From contig JAIYDC010000138.1 of NCBI GenBank assembly GCA_027487685.1, forward strand, positions 1-64,000: DNA of 64,000 bases, given 5' to 3'. Below the pieces are notes generated by a model. The model was not told the DNA's origin. It saw nothing but the letters and a program-made list of their open reading frames with translations, and did not search any database. The position numbers and the translations under genes were made by a program. Shown one piece after another: positions 3,070 through 15,524 of this stretch (position 1 is the stretch's first letter; each line of letters begins with the position of its first letter). This stretch comes from Pseudomonadota bacterium. GTDB taxonomy: Bacteria; Bdellovibrionota; Bacteriovoracia; Bacteriovoracales; Bacteriovoracaceae.

Positions 3070-5352
3070 GTGAAAAAGTTCGTTCTGGCCCTTTCTCTCC
3101 TGACCCTGTCCCTTTCAGGTGAGGCTTATGAAGCGATGGTTCAAAAAGGTCAACTTCCACCGAACCTCGAGGCCCTGTTAGCGAAAGCTTCAGGTGAAAC
3201 TGGGGTGAATTTTCGCAAAGATGACTTTCAGCTGATCGAAGAGCGAACTTTAGCGACAAGCCGCTTTACGATGTATGTGCAAACCAATTCTCAGGTCCCT
3301 GTGGCCAAAACGGCAGTGCGGATATGGGCAGATAAGAACACTGGCGAGTTGATTCTCGCCGAGCTTCACCTTGATGAGTCAACCGCAACTAATAAGATGC
3401 TTCTTGCGGAGAAATTCCGCCGGGCCCGCTTCTCGGCGGGAGCACTCAAGTCGAACCTTCTCTCTAACCTTGTGTTCCTCTTGGTATCGACAGAAGTCGC
3501 AGGACATCCGACCGATAACCGGGTTCTATCCATGTCAGTTAAAGATCAATGGGAGAATGGAGACCTCGTTCGAGAGGCCACGGTGAGAGGTCGGCGTGGA
3601 ATCCATGTCATCAGTGTTTCTCTTCTTAAAAACAAAGTCCTTCGCCGCAGCTACCGGGAGTTTCCCCAGTCTGAGCGTGTAGCGCTTGAAGCTTACGTTT
3701 ACCCGATCTACGAAGAAGTCGAGGGGACTGGAGAGCGCTTGCCCTACGAGCTCAAAGAGCTTCGTCACATCGACGCCGAAGTCAGGGAAGCGGGGGACGC
3801 TCCTCTCGGAAGCCTCGGAGAAACAAAGTTCTCTGAAACCAACTACTCCCCGCTCCTCGCCGAAACCGTCCTCGGTGAGATGAATAACCTTTGGTCCGAG
3901 GTTTCACTCCGGAAGAAAGTCGAAGCAGCAACCTCCCAGTTACCTCTGCGTCCCAATACCTTTGATCGCGGCGTTCTCCTCCAGGGTAAGTATGCCACCA
4001 TTAATTTGCATCCTGCCGTTAAAGAAAAATTCCCCGAGGTAGCGTTTCCACTCGTTCCGACGATTAACCATCTTCTGGCCTGGTCCAATGAGACTGGCAT
4101 CTTCGAGGCAAAACCTATCCCTGGCCTTGCTGGTAAGGCGATAACCTCAGCAGAAGACCTTCTGACTCGGGTCCCATTCCGTCATCCCGAGCACGACGCG
4201 ACCGAGTACATTAACTCAGGTTCCGATGAAGTTCAGGTTTATTACGCTGTGACTGTGCTGATGGAAACACTCGTGAAGTTTGGCTTCACCGACAAAGAAC
4301 TCTCGGAAAAACCTTTCCACGCCTTCCTCTACGACCCGGATATCGGCATGAGAGACAATGCGTACTACTACGACAACACGATCAATTTCACCACCTACAG
4401 TGCTAACGCCATTAACTATGCTCGGGACAACTCAACCATTTGGCATGAACTGGGCCACGCTGTTATGGAAAGATTGATGGGGTCTCACTTGGGTTTTGCC
4501 GATTCGAAAAGTGGCTACGGAGGTTTGTCGGAAGGTATGGCGGACTTTCTGGCGCAGATTATTGTAGAGCACGAAACTCGAGGTGCTCATTTCCCTGGTA
4601 AGAAAAACTTTCGGATTCTAAACGAAACTGGCTTTTACTTGACGAACGAATACCACGATGACGGCGAAGCCTACGGCGGTGCCCTGAACGATATGTTCCT
4701 CGCTGCAATCGCTGGAGAAATCGATGGTCTTCACGCCTTCACTGACCTCACACTTGAGGCCATGCGCCTGACTCGCAATCACCCCTCCCTTTCGGCCGCA
4801 GCATGGTTTGAGCATCTCCTTTACGCTGATTCCCTGGGCAGTGAGGTCCGTCGGCCAGAGCGTTTCCGCGCTGCAATCCTCGAAGCTTTGAAGAAAAGAA
4901 ACTTTTCGTTTTCACGTACGTTTACACCAGCGGCCATGACGGTATCTGTTGACGGTCAAGACTTGACCAATGAGTCTCCAGGCAGCCGCGAAAACCCTAT
5001 CAACCTTTGCCAGGCGGTTCTTCCGGCCACATTCAATCTCCGGGTGGCACTTACCTCTGGGGACGCTGAGTTCATACGCTTCCCGGCCACGGTCAAAGTC
5101 GAATACCAAAAAGGTGCTCTCCAGGGCGCCATTAAGTGGGGCGGCGAGGCCAGGAATCCAGAAACCTTCGTTGTAAACTCTGCTGCTGAGATCGCCGATT
5201 TTCCCGTGCGTGCCCTTGGGTGTGATTCCGTTAACCAACCGGATGGAAGCTGCAAGGACTACGCCTACGTCCAGGTATTCAACCAGGACTCGGTCAAACC
5301 GATCGCGAAGAAGCGCTTCTACCTCAAGCTCAACCCTACCCCTTGCGAATAG
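3070..5352 (+). CDS. Secreted gluzincin-type zinc metalloprotease (M4/M36-like)
   Basis: Probable extracellular or periplasmic peptidase. The start is taken as GTG at 3070, preceded by AAGGA and giving a signal peptide (VKKFVLALSLLTLSLSGEA); an upstream TTG at 3019 in the same frame would spoil it. Residues of about 20-250 look like a propeptide. The catalytic core has HELGH (His459, Glu460, His463) followed 24 residues later by Glu488 in LSEGMADF, the HExxH+E arrangement of gluzincins. The C-terminal 150 residues (from about 620) form a Cys-containing beta-type domain. The exact peptidase family is uncertain: M36/fungalysin-like or a thermolysin relative. It is divergent from the thiolase operon and not obviously linked to the neighbours. 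A secreted protease fits a prey- or protein-degrading lifestyle. Confidence 0.85.
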   Translation: MKKFVLALSLLTLSLSGEAYEAMVQKGQLPPNLEALLAKASGETGVNFRKDDFQLIEERTLATSRFTMYVQTNSQVPVAKTAVRIWADKNTGELILAELHLDESTATNKMLLAEKFRRARFSAGALKSNLLSNLVFLLVSTEVAGHPTDNRVLSMSVKDQWENGDLVREATVRGRRGIHVISVSLLKNKVLRRSYREFPQSERVALEAYVYPIYEEVEGTGERLPYELKELRHIDAEVREAGDAPLGSLGETKFSETNYSPLLAETVLGEMNNLWSEVSLRKKVEAATSQLPLRPNTFDRGVLLQGKYATINLHPAVKEKFPEVAFPLVPTINHLLAWSNETGIFEAKPIPGLAGKAITSAEDLLTRVPFRHPEHDATEYINSGSDEVQVYYAVTVLMETLVKFGFTDKELSEKPFHAFLYDPDIGMRDNAYYYDNTINFTTYSANAINYARDNSTIWHELGHAVMERLMGSHLGFADSKSGYGGLSEGMADFLAQIIVEHETRGAHFPGKKNFRILNETGFYLTNEYHDDGEAYGGALNDMFLAAIAGEIDGLHAFTDLTLEAMRLTRNHPSLSAAAWFEHLLYADSLGSEVRRPERFRAAILEALKKRNFSFSRTFTPAAMTVSVDGQDLTNESPGSRENPINLCQAVLPATFNLRVALTSGDAEFIRFPATVKVEYQKGALQGAIKWGGEARNPETFVVNSAAEIADFPVRALGCDSVNQPDGSCKDYAYVQVFNQDSVKPIAKKRFYLKLNPTPCE

Positions 5353-5419: not shown

Positions 5420-5481
5420 AAACATATCCTTCGGAAATTTTTAGAATACGCTCGCACTTTCTAATGATGAAGGAGTTCCTC

Positions 5482-6693
5482 ATGCAATTGCTGGTGATTC
5501 TGGCGGTGTTCGTTTCCACTATGACTTTCGCCCAGACGGAGCAGAGAATCACTCTCGCTGACGTTCAAAAACTGGTCGATGAAAAACTAGCATCTAAGTG
5601 GTACGAAAAGCTCTCCCTCCGCGGGTACGCTCAGTTCCGCTACAATCGACTGGCCGAGACCAATAGGAATTTGAACTGTCAGAGCTGCGATCGATCCATT
5701 GGCGACCAGCAGGGCTTTTTTATGCGCCGGGCCCGACTCGTTGTCTCAGGCCAGGTCCATGACCGTGTCTTCGTTTACATCCAGCCGGACTACGCCTCCG
5801 ATGCCACCAATCAAAACTACTTCCAGATCCGTGATGCATACTTTGACTACGGTCTAACTCCCACCAACGAGTGGCGGATCCGCTCTGGTATCTCCAAAAT
5901 TCCGTTCGGTTTTGAGAACCTTCAATCTAGCTCCAACCGCGCACCCCTTGATCGGGCCGATGCGCTCAACACCGCTGCACCCAACGAGCGGGACATCGGC
6001 GTGTTCTTGATGTACGCACCGACCGAGATGAGGAAGTTGTTTAAAGAACTTGGAACCGCCAATAATAAAGGGAGTGGTGATTACGGTCTTCTATCCATCG
6101 GTGCCTATAATGGTCAGACGCTCAATAGACGGGAGCGCAATAACGATCTTCATCGTGTCGTCCGCTTAACCTACCCTCATAAGTTTGGAAACGGTCAGAT
6201 CGTTGAGGCCTCCGTCCAGGCCTACGAAGGGAAATTCTTCGTAGAAAAAGTAACTGGATCATCGACAGGAAATGTTGATAAGGATTTTTATGACGGCCGC
6301 CAGGCGATAAGTTTTGTTCTTTACCCGAAGCCTTTCGGGATACAAGCTGAGTGGAACCAAGGCCGGGGCCCAAAGTATTCTCGTGCCCAGAATAAAGTCG
6401 TTACTGACGACCTTTCCGGTGGCTATGTTACGGCAAGCTACCAGATTGAGCAGGGTTCGAATCGCTACTTGCCGTTCGTTAGGTGGCAGGAGTTTGAAGG
6501 AGGAAGAAAACTTGAGAACGCAGCACTTGGGCGGGTTCGCGAGTGGGAGATAGGCAGTGAATGGCAACCTAATCCCGCTTTTGAGCTTACTGCATCTTAT
6601 GTGATCTCTGATCGGCTCTTTCAGTCACAATCAGGAAACCGTAGTAATGAGCAGGGTAACCTGGTTCGTCTCCAGGCCCAGTTCAATTACTAG
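5482..6693 (+). CDS. OprO/OprP-family outer-membrane porin
   Basis: Outer-membrane channel of the phosphate-selective porin type (Porin_O_P). ATG at 5482 is chosen because AAGGAG sits six bases before it; an in-frame ATG at 5464 lies on the wrong side of that site. The 403-residue product has a signal peptide ending near TFAQ, a short charged helix (residues about 22-45), then alternating beta-strand segments with aromatic belts, e.g. LSLRGYAQFRYNR and RRARLVVSGQVHDRVFVYIQPDYA, and it ends in Tyr as expected for an outer-membrane barrel. Two Cys (CQSC) lie in a loop near residue 65. The pst operon lies 4.5 kb away, so phosphate uptake is plausible but the substrate is not proven. It ends against the PaaH C-terminal gene, the stops sharing CTAG. 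Confidence 0.85.
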   Translation: MQLLVILAVFVSTMTFAQTEQRITLADVQKLVDEKLASKWYEKLSLRGYAQFRYNRLAETNRNLNCQSCDRSIGDQQGFFMRRARLVVSGQVHDRVFVYIQPDYASDATNQNYFQIRDAYFDYGLTPTNEWRIRSGISKIPFGFENLQSSSNRAPLDRADALNTAAPNERDIGVFLMYAPTEMRKLFKELGTANNKGSGDYGLLSIGAYNGQTLNRRERNNDLHRVVRLTYPHKFGNGQIVEASVQAYEGKFFVEKVTGSSTGNVDKDFYDGRQAISFVLYPKPFGIQAEWNQGRGPKYSRAQNKVVTDDLSGGYVTASYQIEQGSNRYLPFVRWQEFEGGRKLENAALGRVREWEIGSEWQPNPAFELTASYVISDRLFQSQSGNRSNEQGNLVRLQAQFNY

Positions 6694-11231: not shown

Positions 11232-11996
11232 TTAGCCGAAGCGGCCTTCAATATAAGCGGCCGTCCGCTGCTCTTTCGGAGCGTTAAAGACCTGGGTTGT
11301 TTCACCCATCTCCACCAATTCTCCCATGTACATGAAGATTGTTTCGTCGGAGACACGCTTGGCCTGGTTCATGGAATGAGTCACAATGATGATCGAGTAA
11401 TCTTTCCGCAAGTCCCGGATAAGTCCTTCGATCGCTTCGATGCCTGCTGGATCGAGCGCTGAACACGGTTCATCAAGAAGAAGAAGCTTAGGCTTAAGGG
11501 GAAGAAGTCGCGCAATGCATAGCCTTTGTTGCTTTTCGAGCGAAAGACTGAGTGCCTGGCGGTTAAGCTGCGACTTCAGGTCTTCCCAGAGTCCGACGCG
11601 CTTCAATGATGACTCCACCATCTGGTCGAGGTCACTCGACTTCACGCTTTTCAAATGGGTGCGGGCGCCGAAGACGACGTTTTCATAAATCGTCAGCGGG
11701 AGCGGGTTGGGCTTTTGGAAAACCATTCCAACTTGTTTGCGCAATTCCGGTAGAGCCACGGAAGGGTGGTAAATGTCCTGACCAAAGATCTGGATACTCC
11801 CCGCATGGGAGACTTCATTACCTCGTTCGTTAACCCGATTGAGGCACTTCAGGAAAGTACTCTTGCCGCAGCCGGAAGGGCCGATGAGGGCAGTGATCTT
11901 AAACGACTGAATATTGAAGGTCAGGTTGTTCAGGGCCTGGAAGTTTCCGTACCAGAAGCTGAATTCGTTGGTGTTAACGACGTAGTTTCTATTCAT
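11232..11996 (-). CDS. pstB: Phosphate ABC transporter ATPase PstB, copy 1 (degenerate signature motif)
   Basis: ATP-binding subunit of the Pst phosphate importer, 254 residues. Walker A GPSGCGKST (39-47), Q-loop Gln94 in GMVFQKPNPLP, Walker B LLLLDEPCSALDP with Glu176, and H-loop His207 in VTHSMNQAKR are all intact. The ABC signature is not: the position of LSGGQQQR reads LSLEKQQR (151-158), so the two glycines that contact ATP gamma-phosphate are lost. The neighbouring PstB copy 2 has the opposite pattern, which suggests a heterodimer (see findings). It is the last gene of pstS-C-A-B2-B1, three bases after copy 2; no phoU follows here. Confidence 0.93.
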   Translation of the reverse strand: MNRNYVVNTNEFSFWYGNFQALNNLTFNIQSFKITALIGPSGCGKSTFLKCLNRVNERGNEVSHAGSIQIFGQDIYHPSVALPELRKQVGMVFQKPNPLPLTIYENVVFGARTHLKSVKSSDLDQMVESSLKRVGLWEDLKSQLNRQALSLSLEKQQRLCIARLLPLKPKLLLLDEPCSALDPAGIEAIEGLIRDLRKDYSIIIVTHSMNQAKRVSDETIFMYMGELVEMGETTQVFNAPKEQRTAAYIEGRFG

Positions 11997-11999
11997 AAC

Positions 12000-12755
12000 T
12001 TACCCGAATAACCCTTCAATGTAATCCTTGGTCCGTGAGTCCCGGGTCTCTCCACCGAAGAGGCGCTCGTTGCGGTCAAGGTCAAGGACCTGTCCGTGGA
12101 GCATCATCGCCGTGCGGTCGCCGAGGCGTTTGGCCTGATTGATAACATTCGTGACCATCACAATAGTCATATTCTTTTTAAGTTCGTGGAGGACAGCTTC
12201 GATCTTCATGGTCGTGACCGGGTCAATAGCGATAGAAAACTCGTCAAGACAGAGGACTTCCGGGTGATGGGATAGGGCGCGGGCGATGGTCAGGCGCTGC
12301 TGCTGACCGCCGGAGAGCTTCGTTGCAAGCGTGTTAAGTCTGTCCTTCACCTCGTCCCAAAGGGCCGCCTTCCTGAGGCAGTCTTCCATGATGCTATCGA
12401 GCTCAGCTTCGTTCCCGCAGCCTGCCATCCGAGGAGCAAAGGTCACGTTTTCTTTGATCGTCATTGGCAGCCCAACCGGAAGGGGTGAGACCATTCCAAT
12501 GCGCCGACGAAGAAAAGTCGAGTCTTCGTCTTTATAAATGCTTTCGCCGTCGAGGAGGATGTCGCCTTTGAGCCGGACCTCATTGTTGAAGTCCGTCATC
12601 CGGTTAAGCGCTTTTAGGAGGGAGCTCTTACCGGAGTTTGCCGGGCCAATAATGGCGAGAACTTCGTTTTGGTAAACATCGAGACTGAGATTTTCGATGA
12701 TTGTCTTGTTTCCATAGCCAAGGGTTAAGCCCTTGATTTCGATTTTCTTTTTCAT
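12000..12755 (-). CDS. pstB: Phosphate ABC transporter ATPase PstB, copy 2 (Q-loop and H-loop degenerate)
   Basis: Second PstB-type ATPase, 251 residues from ATG at 12755. This start has GAGGAA nine bases upstream; an ATG at 12764 lies directly on that site. Walker A GPANSGKSS (37-45), an intact signature LSGGQQQR (147-154) and Walker B CLDEF with Glu172 are present. The Q-loop reads GMVSPLPVGLP, with Pro91 where PstB has Gln, and the switch His is Asn203 (VTNVINQAKR). Alone it would be a poor ATPase. Its gene begins two bases after the pstA stop and precedes copy 1. The divergence from PstB is well beyond normal ortholog variation, so it is a paralogue retained for pairing, not a recent duplicate. 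Confidence 0.9.
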   Translation of the reverse strand: MKKKIEIKGLTLGYGNKTIIENLSLDVYQNEVLAIIGPANSGKSSLLKALNRMTDFNNEVRLKGDILLDGESIYKDEDSTFLRRRIGMVSPLPVGLPMTIKENVTFAPRMAGCGNEAELDSIMEDCLRKAALWDEVKDRLNTLATKLSGGQQQRLTIARALSHHPEVLCLDEFSIAIDPVTTMKIEAVLHELKKNMTIVMVTNVINQAKRLGDRTAMMLHGQVLDLDRNERLFGGETRDSRTKDYIEGLFG

Positions 12756-12757
12756 GC

Positions 12758-13627
12758 TTACCATTTCCTCTTCGTCCGAAAATAACTCCGGAGTACGACG
12801 GAGATTGAGTTCACCGAAAGAATGAGAAGGATTAATACCAGCGCCGTTGCGTAGGGGTAAGCTTCAGGCATGCCGACAACTTGGGTCGATATGGTGAAGA
12901 GGTGCATTGATAGGGACATGCACTGATCAAATACGCTCTGAGGAAGAAAAGGGAGATAGAAGGCCACTCCGGTGAAGAGAATCGCCGCCGTCTCACCTGC
13001 TGAGCGTCCTACGGAGAAAACGAGACCGGTGAGAATGCCTGGAAGAGAATTCGGAAGGACGATATAGCGGATGGTCTGAAGCTTACTGGCCCCAACATTC
13101 CAGCTCGCCTCACGGTAAGAGTGGGGAACTGCCTTGAGGGATTCAAGGGTTGAAGTGATGATCACCGGCAAGTTCATCACGGCCAGAGTAAAGGAGGCGG
13201 CGAGTATGCTGGTGCCCATGTTCAGAAAGAGAACAAAGGCGCCGAGTCCGAAGAGGGCGTGAACGATACTTGGTACGCCGGCGAGGTTCAGGATCGCGAG
13301 ACGGATGAGGCGTGTGAGTGCACTGTCGGAGGCATACTCTGAAAGATAGATAGCGGCGACAACGCCCAGGGGACACGACACAAGGACACTAATGATGACT
13401 AACCAGAAGGTTCCGATGATGGTGGGGAAAATTCCGCCGGCCGTCATCCCCTGAACTGGATCCTGAAGCAGAAAGTCCAGGGAAAGGGCCGGTAAGCCCT
13501 TAATGAAAAGCCAAAACATAATCACCAGGGCGGGCAAGAAGAGAAAGAAAGTAATGGTGCTTAGGAGGTTGCGAAAGCGTCGCTCTTTAATTTCTTTTTT
13601 AAGGAGATGGATGCTCGGGTGGAACAT
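12758..13627 (-). CDS. pstA: Phosphate ABC transporter permease PstA
   Basis: Inner-membrane permease of the Pst importer, 289 residues. An N-terminal membrane helix (FRNLLSTITFFLFLPALVIMFWLF) is followed by TAGGIFPTIIGTFWLVIISVLVSCPLGVVAAIYLSEYA, typical of PstA, and the EAA cytoplasmic loop YREASWNVGASKLQTIRYIVLPNSLPGILTG that docks the ATPase. Five further hydrophobic segments reach a basic C-terminus (SYFRTKRKW). It starts two bases after pstC ends and is followed by PstB copy 2. The single EAA loop must accommodate an asymmetric ATPase pair. Confidence 0.95.
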   Translation of the reverse strand: MFHPSIHLLKKEIKERRFRNLLSTITFFLFLPALVIMFWLFIKGLPALSLDFLLQDPVQGMTAGGIFPTIIGTFWLVIISVLVSCPLGVVAAIYLSEYASDSALTRLIRLAILNLAGVPSIVHALFGLGAFVLFLNMGTSILAASFTLAVMNLPVIITSTLESLKAVPHSYREASWNVGASKLQTIRYIVLPNSLPGILTGLVFSVGRSAGETAAILFTGVAFYLPFLPQSVFDQCMSLSMHLFTISTQVVGMPEAYPYATALVLILLILSVNSISVVLRSYFRTKRKW

Positions 13628-13629
13628 AG

Positions 13630-14562
13630 TTACTTCCTTCTGCCTCTGATGAGGTAGTCCGCTGTAATGTTCACGGCAAATGAAAGAGTGAAGAGGACAA
13701 GGCCAATGGCGAAGAGGGCCTGGTAGTGTTCGCCACCCTTTGGCGATTCGCCGAGCTCGGCCGCGATCGTCGCGGTCAACGTCCGCGCCGGATCAAAGAG
13801 ACTTTTCGGGATCTGGATTGAGTGGCCGGTGGCCATAAGAACTGCCATCGTTTCGCCGAGGGCACGGCCTACTCCGAGGAGGGCCGCTGCCATGAGACCA
13901 TTTTTCGCAGCCGGGAGAAGGACGCGGGTGGCGACTTCCCATTTCGTGGCACCCATCGCCTCTGCGGCTTCACGGTAAGTCTCGGGCACCGCCCGAAGCG
14001 CGTCTTCGCCGACAGATACAATAAGCGGCAGCGACATCAAAGCTAAAATAATCGAAGCGTTAAGCACGTTGAGTCCGATCGGAACTTTAAAGACGTTGAT
14101 AATCAGCGGGTTGATCATCATGATGGCAACAAAGCCCCAAACCACAGATGGTATGGCGGCCAGGAACTCGATGAGGATCTTATAGATCTCGCGCATCCGG
14201 GGGCTGCAGAATTCGGAGATGTAGAAGGCGCAGGCAAGACCCAAAGGAACAGCGATTAGCATGGAGAGCACACTCACGCAGACAGTTCCTACTATGAGTG
14301 TCACGATGCCGTAACTGATCTTGCTAACGGAAGCTGGGTTCCAGGAAGTGGAACCGAAGAACTCCATGAATTCGAATCTTCCGATAAGGAAAGGATACGA
14401 CTCTCTCAGAATGAAGAAGAGGATCGCGGCGATCAAGACGATGGAGCTGTAGCCCCCCGCCTTGATAATGAACTCAATCACCCTTTCGGACGTTGGTTTA
14501 CTTCTTTTCTTTTGCCGCCACTCCATCGCCACCGGAGCTGCTTCCATTGACTTGATCTGCAT
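13630..14562 (-). CDS. pstC: Phosphate ABC transporter permease PstC
   Basis: Inner-membrane permease partner of PstA, 310 residues from ATG at 14562; the frame extends to 14694 inside pstS but the internal ATG lies four bases after the pstS stop and gives the expected N-terminus. A cytoplasmic Lys/Arg-rich leader precedes the first helix (IIKAGGYSSIVLIAAILFFIL). The EAA loop is YREAAEAMGATKWEVATRVLLPAAKNGLMAA, and GRALGETMAVLMATGH is characteristic of PstC. PstC lies between pstS and pstA as in most Pst operons. Confidence 0.95.
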   Translation of the reverse strand: MQIKSMEAAPVAMEWRQKKRSKPTSERVIEFIIKAGGYSSIVLIAAILFFILRESYPFLIGRFEFMEFFGSTSWNPASVSKISYGIVTLIVGTVCVSVLSMLIAVPLGLACAFYISEFCSPRMREIYKILIEFLAAIPSVVWGFVAIMMINPLIINVFKVPIGLNVLNASIILALMSLPLIVSVGEDALRAVPETYREAAEAMGATKWEVATRVLLPAAKNGLMAAALLGVGRALGETMAVLMATGHSIQIPKSLFDPARTLTATIAAELGESPKGGEHYQALFAIGLVLFTLSFAVNITADYLIRGRRK

Positions 14563-14566
14563 AGAA

Positions 14567-15424
14567 TTACTTCTTTGGTACGGGTACGTAACCAGATTTG
14601 ATGATGATCTCTTGGGCAGCGGCCGTGTTAGTCCAGTCCATGTAAGCTTTAACTTCAACGGACGGCGTACCAGAGGTGTACATGTAAAGCTCACGAGCGA
14701 TCGGGTAGGTCTTGTCGGTTGCTGTTTCGAGCGAAGGGGTCACACAAGCTGCCTCTTTTGTCTTAGACACACACAAGGACTTAATCCCTTTCGTGAGGTA
14801 GCCCATTCCCGAGTAACCGATCGCGCAGGGTGTTTTTTCAACCAGATCAGCAGCTTCGCGAGAACCGTTCAGGTCCATTGAGCCCATTTTGAAATCCCTA
14901 CCTTCGCCGAGGATTGCCTCCCTGAAGTACTGATAAGTTCCAGAATTAGACTGGCGTGAGATGCGGATAATTTTATTATCCTGGCAGCCTGGAACGACTG
15001 TTCCCGGGCGGACGTCAGACCAGGTTTCGCACTTGCCCCCATCACCGTAGATGCAGGCAATCTCTTCGATGGTAAGACCTGTGAGTGGGTTGGCAGGGTG
15101 AACGAAGACTGCGAGGGCGTCGAGACCGATCACAAATTCCTGAACTTCTTTGCCAGAATTTTTAAGCGCTTGGGCTTTCTCTTCATCTTTAATCTTTCTC
15201 GATGAGTTCGCGATGTCGACAGTCCCATTGATGAGTGCTGCGATTCCCGTACCGGAACCTCCGCCAGAAACAGCGATGGCAACTACTGGTTGAATTTTCT
15301 TGTACTCTTCCGCCCAGGCCTGGGCGAGGTTTACGACCGTATCGGAGCCCTTGTTTTGTATGATTTTGTGTTCACGCTTTGAGCAGCTCACGATAATAGC
15401 AAGAGAGAGAAGAAAAACTTTCAT
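14567..15424 (-). CDS. pstS: Phosphate-binding lipoprotein PstS
   Basis: Periplasmic phosphate receptor, 285 residues. A short lipoprotein signal peptide ends in AIIVSC. The phosphate-binding signatures are visible: NKGSDTVVNLAQAWAEEY, SGGGSGTGIAALINGTVDIANSSR, and SRQSNSGTYQYFREAILG. Four extra Cys (CIYGDGGKC region, near VPGC, TPCAIG, SLCVSKTKEAAC) suggest disulfides. It is the first gene of the operon and so the likely target of phosphate control; a pair of 11-bp-spaced direct repeats sits about 90 bases upstream. Confidence 0.95.
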   Translation of the reverse strand: MKVFLLSLAIIVSCSKREHKIIQNKGSDTVVNLAQAWAEEYKKIQPVVAIAVSGGGSGTGIAALINGTVDIANSSRKIKDEEKAQALKNSGKEVQEFVIGLDALAVFVHPANPLTGLTIEEIACIYGDGGKCETWSDVRPGTVVPGCQDNKIIRISRQSNSGTYQYFREAILGEGRDFKMGSMDLNGSREAADLVEKTPCAIGYSGMGYLTKGIKSLCVSKTKEAACVTPSLETATDKTYPIARELYMYTSGTPSVEVKAYMDWTNTAAAQEIIIKSGYVPVPKK

Positions 15425-15505: not shown

Positions 15506-15524
15506 TTCTTAACCGAGTCTTAAC
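15506..15524 (-). promoter_or_regulatory. Candidate Pho-box: direct repeats upstream of pstS
   Basis: On the minus strand GTTAAG-n5-GTTAAG occurs with exactly 11-bp spacing, 82-100 bases before pstS. PhoB/PhoP-family regulators bind direct repeats at about one helical turn. The hexamer differs from the E. coli consensus CTGTCA and is nearer the TTAACA of PhoP-type boxes. The site is shared with the divergent TSUP permease promoter region. Inference from spacing and position only. Confidence 0.4.

Follow-up and report, generated by a model that had tools for sequence, protein, structure and literature searches.

A tandem pair of PstB homologues with complementary motif changes, predicted to form an asymmetric phosphate-importer ATPase

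The pst operon in the 64,000-nucleotide stretch of DNA analysed here (the window) closes with two adjacent pstB genes, termed copy 2 and copy 1, and a complete set of ATPase motifs in one chain was found in neither copy. The two sets of changes are complementary, occur together in neighbouring gene pairs spanning at least seven phyla and leave each copy with the motifs altered in the other. Judged from these motifs, the copies probably constitute an obligate PstB heterodimer on PstC-PstA, in which one ATP site is of the consensus type and the other degenerate.

Operon layout and family assignment

The genes lie in the order pstS-pstC-pstA-copy 2-copy 1, with the following features, all on the minus strand:

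15507..15524 (-), Pho-box-like direct repeat (GTTAAGA-N4-GTTAAGA), located upstream of pstS at a distance of about 85-100 bases
14567..15424 (-), pstS, TIGR02136 at 220.6 bits against a cut-off of 206.6
about 13630..14565 (-), pstC permease, TIGR02138 at 283 bits against a cut-off of 196.45
12758..13627 (-), pstA permease, TIGR00974 at 251 bits against a cut-off of 193.45
12000..12764 (-), pstB copy 2, 254 amino acids, TIGR00972 at 276.9 bits against a cut-off of 343.2
11232..11996 (-), pstB copy 1, 254 amino acids, TIGR00972 at 325.5 bits against a cut-off of 343.2

The open reading frame of pstC reaches back to a GTG at 14694, and an ATG near 14565 was chosen by inference as the likelier start; alignment with the pstC homologue in locus L039 begins at residue 44 of the long frame. 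The last 7 bases of pstA are shared with the start of copy 2, and only 3 bases separate copy 2 from copy 1, a spacing which suggests that translation of the three genes is coupled. PstS, PstC and PstA, encoded in the same operon as the two ATPases, all score above their family cut-offs, from which phosphate is the predicted substrate, and the same pst gene order was seen in distant carriers. TIGR00972 was the top family for both copies and matched them end to end. As its curated cut-off was reached by neither, they are referred to here as divergent PstB homologues rather than as certified equivalog members. Single-chain AlphaFold2 models were confident (pLDDT 89 for copy 2 and 93 for copy 1) and had E. 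coli PstB (9k3s/9k3x) as their best structural match, with TM-scores of 0.87-0.92, so that both copies are modelled as complete ATPase folds. Elsewhere in the window, about 8 kb from pstS, the plus strand encodes a member of the phosphate-selective porin O/P family (Pfam PF07396) at 5464-6693.

The direct repeat upstream of pstS consists of 7-base units with an 11-base spacing and recurred at the corresponding position in each of the 11 related loci in which the upstream stretch was read far enough. Pho boxes are seven-base repeats with 11-base spacing; since the layouts match, the repeat is a putative Pho box and the pst operon is likely to be under phosphate control.

The operon is without phoU, and a search of the window's genus for a dedicated PhoU found none. 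In the window's genome (G000) a PhoU domain was found only at the C-terminus of a Na/Pi cotransporter-like protein (contig C21, L326:430-2103, plus strand). In most of the distant carrier operons examined, a PhoU-containing gene lies near pstS or the pair; these PhoU-like reading frames were spotted with an approximate E. coli PhoU query, with the domain confirmed by Pfam in one. A PhoU-domain protein of about 360 amino acids is encoded beside the asymmetric pst operon at L056:1004-2089 (plus strand), and similar long genes occur in other distant carriers. Its C-terminal part has a weak likeness to arsenate reductase and low-molecular-weight phosphatases (PDB 2ipa, E 0.003) and, in this single protein checked, apparently lacks the catalytic Cys.

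Division of motifs between the two copies

Both reading frames of the original prediction were recovered at its coordinates, on the minus strand, and its description of copy 1 was confirmed on translation: Walker A and B, Gln94 and His207 are intact and the signature reads LSLEKQQR. In order, the motifs of copy 1 are GPSGCGKST, MVFQKPNP (containing Gln94), LSLEKQQR, LLLLDEPCSALDP and VTHSM (containing His207), and those of copy 2 are GPANSGKSS, MVSPLPVGLP, LSGGQQQR, LCLDEFSIAIDP and VTNVI. For copy 2, the perfect LSGGQQQR signature and the replacement of the Q-loop Gln by Pro and of the switch His by Asn all stood, but the numbering given (Pro91 and Asn203) did not, as it fits a start at Met4; with translation starting from the ATG at 12764, the replacements become Pro94 and Asn206. 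The D-loop of copy 2 is also changed (SIAID against SALD), a feature absent from the original prediction. Copy 2 retains the Walker A Lys and the Walker B Asp-Glu.

Co-occurrence of the changes across phyla

Across 110 non-redundant pairs, defined as adjacent copy 2/copy 1 pairs after removal of duplicates and drawn from at least seven phyla, the replacements in copy 2 were invariant, with Gln to Pro, His to Asn, the PLPVGLP loop and the LSGGQQQR signature each present in 110/110. In the copy 1 signature, the first Gly was replaced by Leu in 110/110 and the second by Glu in 108/110, while the Q-loop Gln was retained in 110/110 and the His in 109/110. The Walker A Lys and Walker B Asp-Glu were present in every pair in each copy. 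The arrangement is that of a degenerate site in all 110 pairs, in that the signature is altered in one chain only (copy 1) and the Walker-side changes, to the Q-loop and H-loop, fall in the opposite chain (copy 2), with the Walker B Glu kept. These counts do not represent 110 independent events, because the pairs are related by descent and have an operon in common. Likewise, the correlation between the inter-pair distances of copy 1 and copy 2 (r = 0.94 across the 110 pairs) is expected from joint inheritance and would arise even without contact between the copies.

Copy 2 lay upstream of copy 1 in 140/140 loci containing both, with a median gap of 17 bases. By adjacency, 118 pairs were complementary (114 with copy 2 lacking both Gln and His, and 4 lacking Gln with the His kept), four were intact/intact, two had a partial partner and one carried a variant H-loop in copy 1 (L179). 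A third, degenerate copy followed copy 1 at two loci. Third PstB-like genes near the asymmetric pair were seen at L041:5582-6304 and L045:6531-7286 (both plus strand), with the Q-loop, H-loop and signature all changed (LTTSMILQ; LSIGQQQL).

The comparison across Bdellovibrionota called for in the original prediction found both defects together in all carriers, and the same held in many phyla besides. Orthologous operons with copy 2 alone, which would have spoken against the pairing, were not encountered: the loci showing only copy 2 were contig ends (L217, L185, L060, L042 and L029 each stop at a contig edge) or belonged to genome G865, in which copy 2 and copy 1 sit on different contigs. Locus L235, a candidate for copy 2 without a partner, was rejected on finding copy 1 on another contig (L304). 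Losses were clade-wide and not scattered, in contrast to the pattern of independent motif loss in individual species.

A scan of one genome per species recovered relatives of copy 2 at 51-60% identity in Verrucomicrobiota, Acidobacteriota, Planctomycetota, Poribacteria, Rhodothermales, Nitrospirales, Accumulibacter, Chromatiaceae and Magnetococcales, and copy 1 adjoined these wherever the contig continued. All these relatives carried the copy 2 changes. A copy 2 profile was then searched in phylum samples, with class membership assigned from a gap in bit scores (complete copy 2-type proteins at least 398 bits, the next class at most 317 bits) rather than from a curated cut-off. Carriers of copy 2-type proteins numbered 9/192 genomes in the Bdellovibrionota sample, 28/247 in Acidobacteriota, 22/246 in Planctomycetota (one being a contig-end fragment of 362 bits), 24/299 in Pseudomonadota and 4/195 in Verrucomicrobiota. 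The asymmetric pair is far more general than one sequence could reveal. Within the window's genus, both PstB copies were missing from the assemblies of G004 and G010, which are 86-87% complete.

Milder pairs and evolutionary history

Milder forms of the pair were found beside type A. In type B pairs, from Acidobacteriota and Planctomycetota, the copy lacking the Q-loop Gln (the Q-less copy) has Ala in the Q-loop, Asn in the H-loop and an LSGGQ signature, with partner signatures of LTGE, LSGE, LSAE or LSLE. In type C pairs, mainly from Chloroflexota, the Q-less copy combines a Q-loop Ala with VPH and LSGGQ, and the partner, with LSLG, LNPG or LALG, sometimes lies several kb away in the opposite direction. 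Where Chloroflexota Q-less copies had no partner beside them (L244-L252), most of the genomes contained a signature-deficient copy at another location.

In trees built with the motif columns omitted, the Q-less copies of types A, B and C formed one clade (SH-aLRT 95; FastTree support 1.0), which in the FastTree topology included one third-copy sequence. Among the signature-deficient partners, types A and B grouped together. Repeated independent loss of the signature was hinted at by FastTree and a quick tree, but a single clade of type A, B and C partners was not rejected by the AU test (p 0.863), and convergence is thus not claimed. With one Q-less clade, and a single partner clade that the test allows, the simplest reading is that one ancient asymmetric pair gave rise to all three types, as far as the sequences indicate. 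The only signature-deficient copy to branch elsewhere was an Oscillospiraceae partner with LSSGQ (L086). This locus (L086:591-1367 and 3998-4756, plus strand) is a separate pst locus with two PstBs, one carrying LSSGQ and the other lacking both the Lys of Walker A (GPAGSGVTT) and the Glu of Walker B (LLDRP).

Selection and genomes with no other PstB

Both genes are under strong purifying selection: dN/dS within the genus, drawn from genus pairs with unsaturated synonymous change, was about 0.05 for copy 2 and 0.04 for copy 1. The contention of the original prediction that random decay would not give complementary defects was borne out by these values, together with fixation of the same residues in 110/110 pairs. 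Relaxed constraint or decay following duplication, by which motifs may be lost from duplicated ATPases, is accordingly extremely improbable, given dN/dS near 0.05 for both copies, replacement residues that are invariant across phyla (such as the PLPVGLP loop) and the several carriers without any other PstB. Sequencing error was rejected on the grounds of the same dN/dS and of conservation in the 110 pairs.

The window's genome yielded no third PstB-like gene with a score comparable to those of the pair. Other PstBs were searched for in 23 genomes reached through the loci, with matches accepted down to E 1e-60, and a PstB over the family cut-off was present in eleven of them. In eight type A carriers (G216, G218, G219, G223, G224, G226, G229 and G230) the pair alone was found at E 1e-60, and in G212 and G233 only a weaker ATPase of 224-227 bits was found besides the pair. 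With no other PstB in those carriers, the pair has to do the work of Pst there, if the assemblies are complete.

Proposed heterodimer and alternative explanations

In an ABC dimer, each ATP site combines the signature of one chain with the Walker side of its partner (PMC7756269). As copy 1 is without the signature and copy 2 without the Gln and His, neither homodimer would have a complete site, and the joint occurrence of the complementary motifs lends support to the heterodimer originally proposed. In such a dimer, the Walker side of copy 1 and the signature of copy 2 would form one complete, hydrolysing site, and the Walker side of copy 2, without the Q-loop Gln and switch His, would face the LxLE signature of copy 1 in a degenerate site. 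With Walker A and B intact in copy 2, ATP binding at the degenerate site is probably preserved, and the bound ATP is probably kept unhydrolysed; slow hydrolysis there is possible, as the Walker B Glu is kept, unlike in many degenerate sites. One hydrolysis event per import cycle would be expected. Each copy would face its own permease. The dimer may be stabilised, and coupled to one permease, by the degenerate site together with the PLPVGLP loop that is invariant in copy 2. That the copies form a heterodimer, that one site is silent, that one ATP is used per cycle and which permease each copy contacts are inferred from motif geometry. A broader proposal, that this widespread Pst clade is obligately asymmetric and uses one ATP per phosphate in an exporter-type cycle, with PLPVGLP as a coupling element and the silent site as an ATP-occupied clamp or sensor, is put forward tentatively and is somewhat less likely to hold in full than to fail.

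It could instead be that one copy is a homodimeric motor and the other a pseudo-ATPase regulator sensing ATP or phosphate, perhaps in place of PhoU, an arrangement compatible with the lack of a detected dedicated PhoU in the window's genus and with the unequal roles played by the tandem PstBs of Enterococcus (PMC12096839). This is unlikely, however, as either homodimer would contain two incomplete sites (through the signature in copy 1, and the Gln and His in copy 2), and the presence of a PhoU-containing gene next to the pair in most distant carrier operons examined indicates that the pair is not a PhoU substitute. Two PstB homodimers working side by side despite their changed motifs would be less probable again. 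Single motif changes are tolerated by some ABC proteins (PMC7756269) and both copies have undamaged Walker A and B motifs, but here the changes are multiple, invariant and divided between the copies exactly as the geometry of the composite sites would have it. All motifs are moreover kept both in the non-asymmetric tandem pair of E. faecalis (PMC12096839) and in the four intact tandem pairs of the present survey. A heterodimer of copy 1 and copy 2 is hence the preferred reading.

Relation to known systems and implications

The pair resembles E. coli PstSCAB (cryo-EM structures 9k3s, 9k3x and 9k3y) in fold, in 41-45% identity, in pstS-C-A-B logic and in its putative Pho-type control element. 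The E. coli structures contain one PstB present as two copies, identical chains with all motifs, whereas here two different chains have the motifs divided between them. Neighbouring pstB genes within one pst operon also occur in Firmicutes such as Enterococcus faecalis and Bacillus subtilis, where they encode the tandem PstB1/PstB2, but E. faecalis PstB1 and PstB2 each keep all ATPase motifs (PMC12096839), which neither copy does here. The authors of the E. faecalis study noted no earlier published study on the relative contributions of tandem pstB paralogs (PMC12096839). PstBA and PstBB of B. subtilis have been modelled as a mixed dimer, with no report of motif asymmetry in these PstBs found in that paper (PMC11466899).

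One consensus and one degenerate site, predicted here from sequence, is an arrangement shared with the heterodimeric exporters TM287/288, BmrCD, TAP, MRP1 and Pdr5, degenerate sites being known in exporters (PMC7756269), and the degenerate-site signature of yeast Pdr5 (LNVEQ; PMC7756269) resembles the LSLEQ/LxLEQ of copy 1. In these exporters, however, the ATPase domains are fused to transmembrane domains and the Walker B Glu is often changed, whereas the PstB copies are separate chains in which the Glu is kept and the Q-loop and H-loop are lost. The original prediction likened the pair to the exporter design, and the predicted asymmetric layout does match; the design is not exclusive to exporters, since the fused ATPases of the importers RbsA and NupO also have one degenerate site of two (PMC11466899). 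The PstB pair differs from these type II importers, in which both ATPase domains lie in one chain and the Walker A Lys is lost. A search of open-access papers yielded no account of PstB pairs with a degenerate site.

The question of why some ABC transporters retain one dead ATP site has been addressed mostly in exporters. If the proposed heterodimer is correct, a known exporter design is matched in phosphate import. The importer concerned is well understood and has a simple substrate, two separate and swappable ATPase genes, and canonical symmetric relatives within the family, so that the value of a degenerate site becomes directly testable through mixing and exchange of subunits. The pst operons of Accumulibacter, Planctomycetota, Acidobacteriota and others may at present be misread as encoding two ordinary PstBs, and neither PstB of such operons is likely to be functional alone.
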